Below, piece after piece: positions 5,469 through 19,509 of a stretch of 32,450 nucleotides of DNA. A program made the translations under genes and the position numbers. The stretch's first letter is position 1. Each line of letters starts with the position of its first letter. The stretch lies in contig MHXP01000088.1 in NCBI GenBank assembly GCA_001824485.1, positions 1-32,450 on the forward strand, written 5' to 3'. The DNA is from Planctomycetes bacterium GWA2_39_15. GTDB taxonomy: Bacteria > Planctomycetota > Brocadiia > Brocadiales > Brocadiaceae. Below the pieces are notes generated by a model. That model did not search any database and had not been told where the DNA came from. It saw nothing but the letters and a program-made list of their open reading frames with translations.

Positions 5469-5526
5469 AAAGTTATTGTTTACATATAAAACAGATGAGA
5501 TATCATAGGAATAAAATATGAAATCT

Positions 5527-5550
5527 GGTGGCACAGGCTTCCAGCCTGTG
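5527..5550 (+). repeat. REP-like palindrome, copy 1
   Basis: GGTGGCACAGGCTTCCAGCCTGTG: hairpin CACAGGC-TTCCA-GCCTGTG with GGTGG head. Confidence 0.8.
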
Positions 5551-5653
5551 AAAGAATTTAGAATTTACAGAAGAAACTTACCCCATTGGGAACGGCCAGA
5601 AAGTGTATATTTCCTAGCGCAGCACAGCCGCAACCAAAACAACCCCTCTCTTT

Positions 5654-5672
5654 CCCCCCTTCGCAAGGGGGG
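5654..5672. repeat. G/C-run palindrome (CCCCCCTT-CGC-AAGGGGGG)
   Basis: Perfect 8-bp stem with 3-nt loop, embedded in CCCCTCTCTTTCCCCCCTTCGCAAGGGGGGACACAGGGGGGTGT; looks like a dispersed repeat inside the transposase remnant. Confidence 0.7.
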
Positions 5673-5682
5673 ACACAGGGGG

Positions 5683-5719
5683 GTGTAAAAAAACTTGCAA
5701 AAAAAGGAAGTTTTTACAC
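5683..5719. repeat. Second A/T-rich hairpin next to the G/C palindrome
   Basis: GTGTAAAAAAACTT ... AAGTTTTTACAC: 12-bp inverted repeat with a 2-nt A bulge. Confidence 0.6.
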
Positions 5720-5807
5720 AGTAATACTATAACCTTTAAAACATTCAGGCAAGCTATTCTTACAGAAGAATCAAGAAACATTATATTTAATAGCATCCGC
5801 ATAAAAA

Positions 5808-5831
5808 CACAGGCAAGATGCCTGTGCCACC
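5808..5831 (-). repeat. REP-like palindrome, copy 2 (inverted relative to copy 1)
   Basis: CACAGGCAAGATGCCTGTGCCACC; its reverse complement GGTGGCACAGGCATCTTGCCTGTG equals copy 1 except in the 5-nt loop. Confidence 0.8.
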
Positions 5832-6054
5832 AAGAGTATGGCTGGATGAAAATTATGATAGAATAATCAGGGACAACAAAGAATTTCAGGAAAAAATGAA
5901 TTACATTATAAATAATCCGGTAAAAACCAACCTTGTTGAAGCAGCAAAAGATTATAAATGGTTATACATCTTTGATTAATCTGATAACATATTAAAAACA
6001 AATGCATAATTTTATATTTTTATTATGAATGAATACCTACGAATCTCTTAAACA

Positions 6055-18699: not shown

Positions 18700-19509
18700 C
18701 TAACAATCATTAAAATAATTTTTTAATATAAATTTGGCATTAAACATCTCGTCTAGTCTTTTATATTTATCCATATTATATTTTCTGTTTCCTTTTTTTC
18801 TTCTAGCTATAATCATTAAATTTTTCGGAGTATATTTAGGAGATACAACCTCAACAAGTTTAACATGATAACCAGCACCGGTAAGAAATTGTGCCCTTAA
18901 ACCCTCAGTTAGAATGTCGGCAAAACGATATCTTAAAAGTCCAAAATCCGTTAAATCAACCAGTGGATGTCCAATTTTTAAACGACCACGTATCTGGTTT
19001 TCACAACACGGAACCACTATTATATATTTTGCCCCTAATTTAATACCTTTAGCAATTGTTTCATCTGTTGCAATATCACACGCATGCAAAGCAATCACAA
19101 TATCAATTTGTTTTTCTGGTTGAGCATCTATAGTTCTAGAATTGATAAAATGCATATTTCTGTATCCGAGACGCTCTTTAATATGATTGCATTTATCAAT
19201 CAGTATTTTATTGGTATCCACTCCGTAAAAAAATGTATTTATATTATACCGTTCAGAAAGTATATAATTTAGTGCAAAAGATAAATATGATTTACCACAA
19301 GAACAGTCAAGAAATATAATTTCTTTGTTTTGTGAATAAGTATCAACAATTCTTATAACTTGCTCACAAAATCCTATTACTTCATTGAACTTTTTTATTT
19401 CCCGTTCATCACCTGTTTGGTTAATATCTAGCGCAAGGTTTTTTAACAACTCTTTGCTGGATTTTAATATCTCCTCAATTGTTTCTTTGCTTTCTGCAGT
19501 TATTCCCAT
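18700..19509 (-). CDS. Class I SAM-dependent methyltransferase-like protein (Methyltransf_32-like)
   Basis: IIFLDCSCGKSYLSFALNYIL (motif I region), DIVIALHACDIATDETIAKGIKLGAKYIIVVPCCENQIRGRL; co-oriented between rpsM and rpsK. Confidence 0.75.
   Translation of the reverse strand: MGITAESKETIEEILKSSKELLKNLALDINQTGDEREIKKFNEVIGFCEQVIRIVDTYSQNKEIIFLDCSCGKSYLSFALNYILSERYNINTFFYGVDTNKILIDKCNHIKERLGYRNMHFINSRTIDAQPEKQIDIVIALHACDIATDETIAKGIKLGAKYIIVVPCCENQIRGRLKIGHPLVDLTDFGLLRYRFADILTEGLRAQFLTGAGYHVKLVEVVSPKYTPKNLMIIARRKKGNRKYNMDKYKRLDEMFNAKFILKNYFNDC

Follow-up and report, generated by a model that had tools for sequence, protein, structure and literature searches.

A probable RAYT pseudogene with two REP hairpins in its reading frame, downstream of clpB in a planctomycete genome

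The window, a 32,450-nt stretch from Planctomycetes bacterium GWA2_39_15, carries between clpB (upstream) and a thioredoxin-like gene (downstream) what we read, with a probability of about 0.92, as the pseudogene of a REP-associated Y1 (HUH/tyrosine) transposase (RAYT) at 5507-5979, which holds two GTGG-tagged REP hairpins of its own within its reading frame and has suffered two lesions. The locus aligns in two pieces to an intact 166-aa RAYT, in agreement with the decayed RAYT proposed in the initial annotation, and the same locus occurs in other planctomycete MAGs among the relatives and public genome contigs searched. An Rfam search of the window returned no match, no relatives of the RAYT block were found among plasmids, phages and viral contigs, and a search for ACGTACGTACGT had no bearing on the RAYT locus. 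Elsewhere in the window, a methyltransferase-like ORF (18700-19509, minus strand) lies between ribosomal protein genes resembling rpsK and rpsM.

Three peptide blocks survive on the plus strand and stand in RAYT order, as first described. Following a leader (5507-5517) that includes a Shine-Dalgarno-like AGGA at 5507-5510, the N-terminal block MKSGGTGFQPVKEFRIYRRNLPHWERPESVYF (5518-5613) is still open and has homologues in L070 and L078, two of the relatives described below. The middle block ITFKTFRQAILTEESRNIIFNSI (5729-5798) was placed by translation and alignment to the relative G007, and the C-terminal block HKNTGKMPVPPRVWLDENYDRIIRDNKEFQEKMNYIINNPVKTNLVEAAKDYKWLYIFD (5799-5979) ends at a stop codon at 5977-5979. 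Identity to G007 is 94% both across the N-terminal region (5505-5616) and, at the DNA level, across the C-terminal region (5799-6036). Searched on its own, the C-terminal block hits REP_Tyr_transpos NF047646 (E 3.3e-12, 46.5 bits), scoring under the whole-protein cut-off of 80 because it is a fragment. A Pfam search with the three blocks alone found no RAYT, the peptides being too short. Translation likely starts at ATG 5518, with the AGGA upstream of it, and not at the GTG ending the first palindrome as had been suggested; that palindrome is itself translated. Using motif patterns taken from PMC6006769, we identified both a W motif (VWLDENYDR) and a YIxxNP-type Y motif (NYIINNP, from 5899) in the window copy. 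The Tyr of NYIINNP (codon 5902-5904) is most likely the catalytic residue, and the ENYDRIIRD segment to which it had been assigned belongs to the W-motif region. The HUH motif is missing from the window copy, deleted relative to G007, so that this copy is a RAYT pseudogene and not a working member of the family; given that the surviving RAYT codons contain no further stops, the loss of the gene looks recent.

REP1 (5527-5550, plus strand) and REP2 (5808-5831, minus strand) are 24-nt palindromes in inverted orientation, each reading GGTGGCACAGGC-N5-GCCTGTG and, as initially noted, differing only in the loop. They stand 257 nt apart. No third copy with up to three mismatches is present in the window, and two palindrome matches arose in 0 of 100 shuffles. 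REP1 is translated downstream of ATG 5518 as GGTGFQPV and is conserved in frame in L068/G007, L070/G023 and L078. REP2, whose plus strand reads TGKMPVPP, is translated as part of the linker that connects the HUH motif to the Tyr motif, and occupies the same place and frame in L068/G007, where STGKMPVPPR is flanked by MPDHIH and NYIVNNP; it is absent from L078, which reads KRKGSVWLDENFD there. Orthologues that encode HUH have these palindromes in frame, and in L068/G007 the second one coexists with the HUH motif, so the proposal that palindrome 2 stands where HUH belongs, as an insertion, is rejected. Comparison of these coding sequences indicates that REP1 and REP2 most likely predate the breakage of the window copy.

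The relatives that support these assignments differ in completeness. L068, on the same contig as G007, reads MESGGTGLQPVKEFRIYRRN...MPDHIHLLLQPLEK...HKSTGKMPVPPRVWLDENYDR...NYIVNNP... with a single 1-nt frameshift, while L070, on the same contig as G023, reads MESSGTGFQPVKEF...VIMPDHVHLLLQPLEK until its contig ends before the REP2 position. L078, from another family of the order (G054) and at another site, is an intact 166-aa RAYT (MEYGGTGYQPVRTFRIYKRN...MADHVH...YIVNNP) that scores 97 bits against NF047646 (cut-off 80) and 7.9e-8 against PF01797, and weakly matches the E. coli TnpAREP structure 4er8 (E 0.018). The HUH motif reads MPDHIH in L068, MPDHVH in L070 and MADHVH in L078. No intact gene with both REPs was found among the relatives, the G007 copy being frameshifted and the G023 copy stopping at the contig end.

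Comparison with the HUH-bearing relative G007 placed both lesions exactly. The first is a dispersed palindromic repeat of 115 nt at 5614-5728 (TAGCGCAGCACAGCCGCAACC...GTAATACTATA), which separates the first two blocks, is foreign to the RAYT sequence and is absent from G007 and G023 at the same site. Copies of it, up to 97% identical, occur elsewhere in the window's own genome and in large numbers across the family, with 97% identity reached in another genus (G005). It is predicted to fold strongly as DNA (z -4.8), has neither a clear terminal inverted repeat nor a clear target duplication, and resembles a palindrome-associated non-autonomous element. The second lesion is a 162-nt deletion with its junction at 5798/5799, which removed the HUH-coding segment and ends 9 nt before REP2. 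Together, the repeat inserted after VYF and the loss of HUH with the stretch up to REP2 would have killed the gene. The earlier proposal of an internal, REP-mediated deletion or insertion was therefore right as to the deletion that took HUH, had missed the 115-nt insertion, and as to REP mediation describes only a possibility.

By analogy with characterised TnpAREP enzymes, the intact protein would bind REP hairpins on single-stranded DNA, and its Tyr would nick beside the hairpin, possibly copying or moving REP units. The palindromes themselves are genuine REPs: with one mismatch allowed, the motif occurs 27 times in G003 and 54 times in G039, and the reversed-pattern control gave 0 in 59 of 59 genomes. 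In the window's own genome the GTGG-tagged motif occurs twice, both times in the RAYT gene, and no other copy was recovered with up to two mismatches or by blastn. That genome is a MAG of 231 contigs at 85% completeness, and its unassembled part could contain more REP copies or an intact gene. Its PF01797 matches were considered as a source of the palindromes and rejected, these being IS200-like TnpA proteins (L001-L003) and a 325-aa RAYT (L004) that belongs to a different subclass. The latter (L004:15-992, contig C189) has a C-terminal part that weakly matches DnaA and sigma-70 models, and its length fits TnpAY1 subclass 2.3.

Most of the 27 REP copies in G003 keep flanking RAYT codons and none has the HUH region. 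All 29 of the G003 matches tallied map to the two REP units and the RAYT codons beside them, with peaks at about 28-139 and 358-463 along the G007 gene, and 0 fall on the HUH segment, leaving 140-357 (the HUH-coding part) uncovered. Copies of the REP1 type retain the RAYT leader and first codons; several of these dispersed units begin at the leader, and the left edge of the REP1 matches, at query position 28, corresponds to window position 5507. In many copies of the REP2 type the hairpin is preceded by (A)CATAAAAG and followed by RAYT codons resembling CCAAGTGTATGGCTGGATGAAAATTATG. This distribution favours the dispersal of short, context-carrying REP units over the decay of whole gene copies, and the view of the G003 solo REPs as wrecks of full-length RAYTs is not favoured, no tallied match extending over query 140-357. 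The RAYT codons that accompany the dispersed REPs link them to the part of the gene from which they came. G003 also contains REP pairs, four in the order REP2-Cterm-leader-REP1 (L145, L146, L155 and L079) and one in gene order (L152); the former four look as if the end of one RAYT had been joined to the start of another, or as if they were the junction of a circle.

The position of the deletion is suggestive of a REP role, which we regard as possible. The specific proposal is that the REP/RAYT machinery deleted HUH through a nick at the outer edge of the REP2 unit, yielding two close inverted REPs as a REPIN precursor. In its favour, the dispersed REP2 units of G003 most often have their left edge at 368-372 of the G007 query, 1-2 nt from the right breakpoint at 366/367, and L152 (G003:C153) is another internally deleted copy, arranged REP1-Nterm-CATAAAAG-REP2-Cterm, with a right end 5 nt from that breakpoint. 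In known TnpAREP enzymes the nick beside the hairpin falls either at CT or at both CT and CA (PMC8266576). This is nevertheless one event, a random breakpoint would fall equally close with a chance of about 5%, and at the same locus in G025 ordinary slippage between two AAATGCA repeats appears to have removed the tail. We consider the proposal unlikely.

The locus downstream of clpB exists in further reduced states. In G001 only REP1 and about 20 nt remain, whereas G025 retains REP1 together with the 3' end and a short HUH-distal stretch. All that G003 has there is one REP2, about 25 nt past the clpB stop; it may be what is left of the gene or a REP that was inserted separately. REP1 and about 20 nt are retained in G001 and G025 at 95-97% identity where clpB is about 80% identical and nearly all of the RAYT is gone, as might be expected if the remains, REP1 especially, were kept as a terminator or mRNA-stabilising hairpin for clpB. 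Such a role appears improbable, given that the whole RAYT block, dead C-terminal part included, is about equally conserved between the window and G007, that a recent arrival of the block explains the pattern equally well, and that RAYT-less relatives manage without REP1.

The divergence of the block bears on that arrival. Between the window and G007 the RAYT has dN 0.056 and dS 0.097 (114 codons), whereas synonymous sites in clpB (79% nucleotide identity), tlpA and aspC are saturated; between G007 and G023 the RAYT dS is 0.21 and clpB is again saturated. Identity rises from about 0.8 in the flanks to more than 0.9 at the RAYT block (5505-6036), and the block is absent from the other genomes of the order examined. 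From these comparisons the block seems to have entered these genera after they separated, yet in the same place. This would fit either separate insertions at a preferred site or a recombinational transfer of the segment, and the contrast with the saturated neighbours suggests that genes of this kind are still passed from one genus to another. We give little credence to the fuller scenario, in which the element was mobile until recently, favours a target immediately 3' of clpB and was gained independently by no fewer than three genera, and in which its REP units would serve both as parts of the protein and later as trimming points toward solo REPs or REPINs.

Very improbable is the initial suggestion that the shortened locus is a working non-autonomous REPIN- or MITE-like unit: two inverted REPs do stand 257 nt apart and G003 shows that dispersal is possible for REP units flanked by RAYT-derived sequence, but the window's own assembly contains no second copy of the unit and no other RAYT of the same subfamily, its other Y1 proteins being IS200-like or of another subclass, and the locus occupies the same site as an HUH-bearing orthologue.

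The usual picture of RAYTs is one of domesticated and immobile genes with REPs at their flanks. The present locus matters because a RAYT stands between the same two neighbours in several states, with REPs inside its coding sequence. It resembles the RAYT/TnpAREP family (NF047646, PF01797, PDB 4er8) in the order of the Y1 core, the W and YIxxNP motifs, the GTGG-footed hairpins at the gene, the HUH motif of its relatives and the single copy of the subfamily per genome, and GT[AG]G-footed hairpins linked to the RAYT are repeated in genomes (2 in its own, 27 in G003 and 54 in G039). It departs from that family in that the window copy has no HUH motif and is interrupted by a repeat, and in that both REPs lie within the reading frame and not only at the flanks. 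Compared with REPINs and REP doublets, it likewise has two inverted REPs, brought nearer by internal deletion, and G003 has REP pairs with flanks of RAYT codons; unlike them, the window unit is single-copy and undispersed in its own genome. In-frame REPs in RAYT genes have already been published for TnpAY1 subclass 2.4 (Quentin et al. 2018, PMC6006769), which shares an in-frame REP between the HuH and Y motifs (REP2, as in L068); the HUH-to-Tyr spacing is about 70 aa in L068 against a median of 88 aa in that subclass, and the window RAYT differs in carrying a further in-frame REP in its N-terminal codons. Collectively, the architecture is already known, and what this locus adds is the N-terminal in-frame REP and a series of states at one locus.
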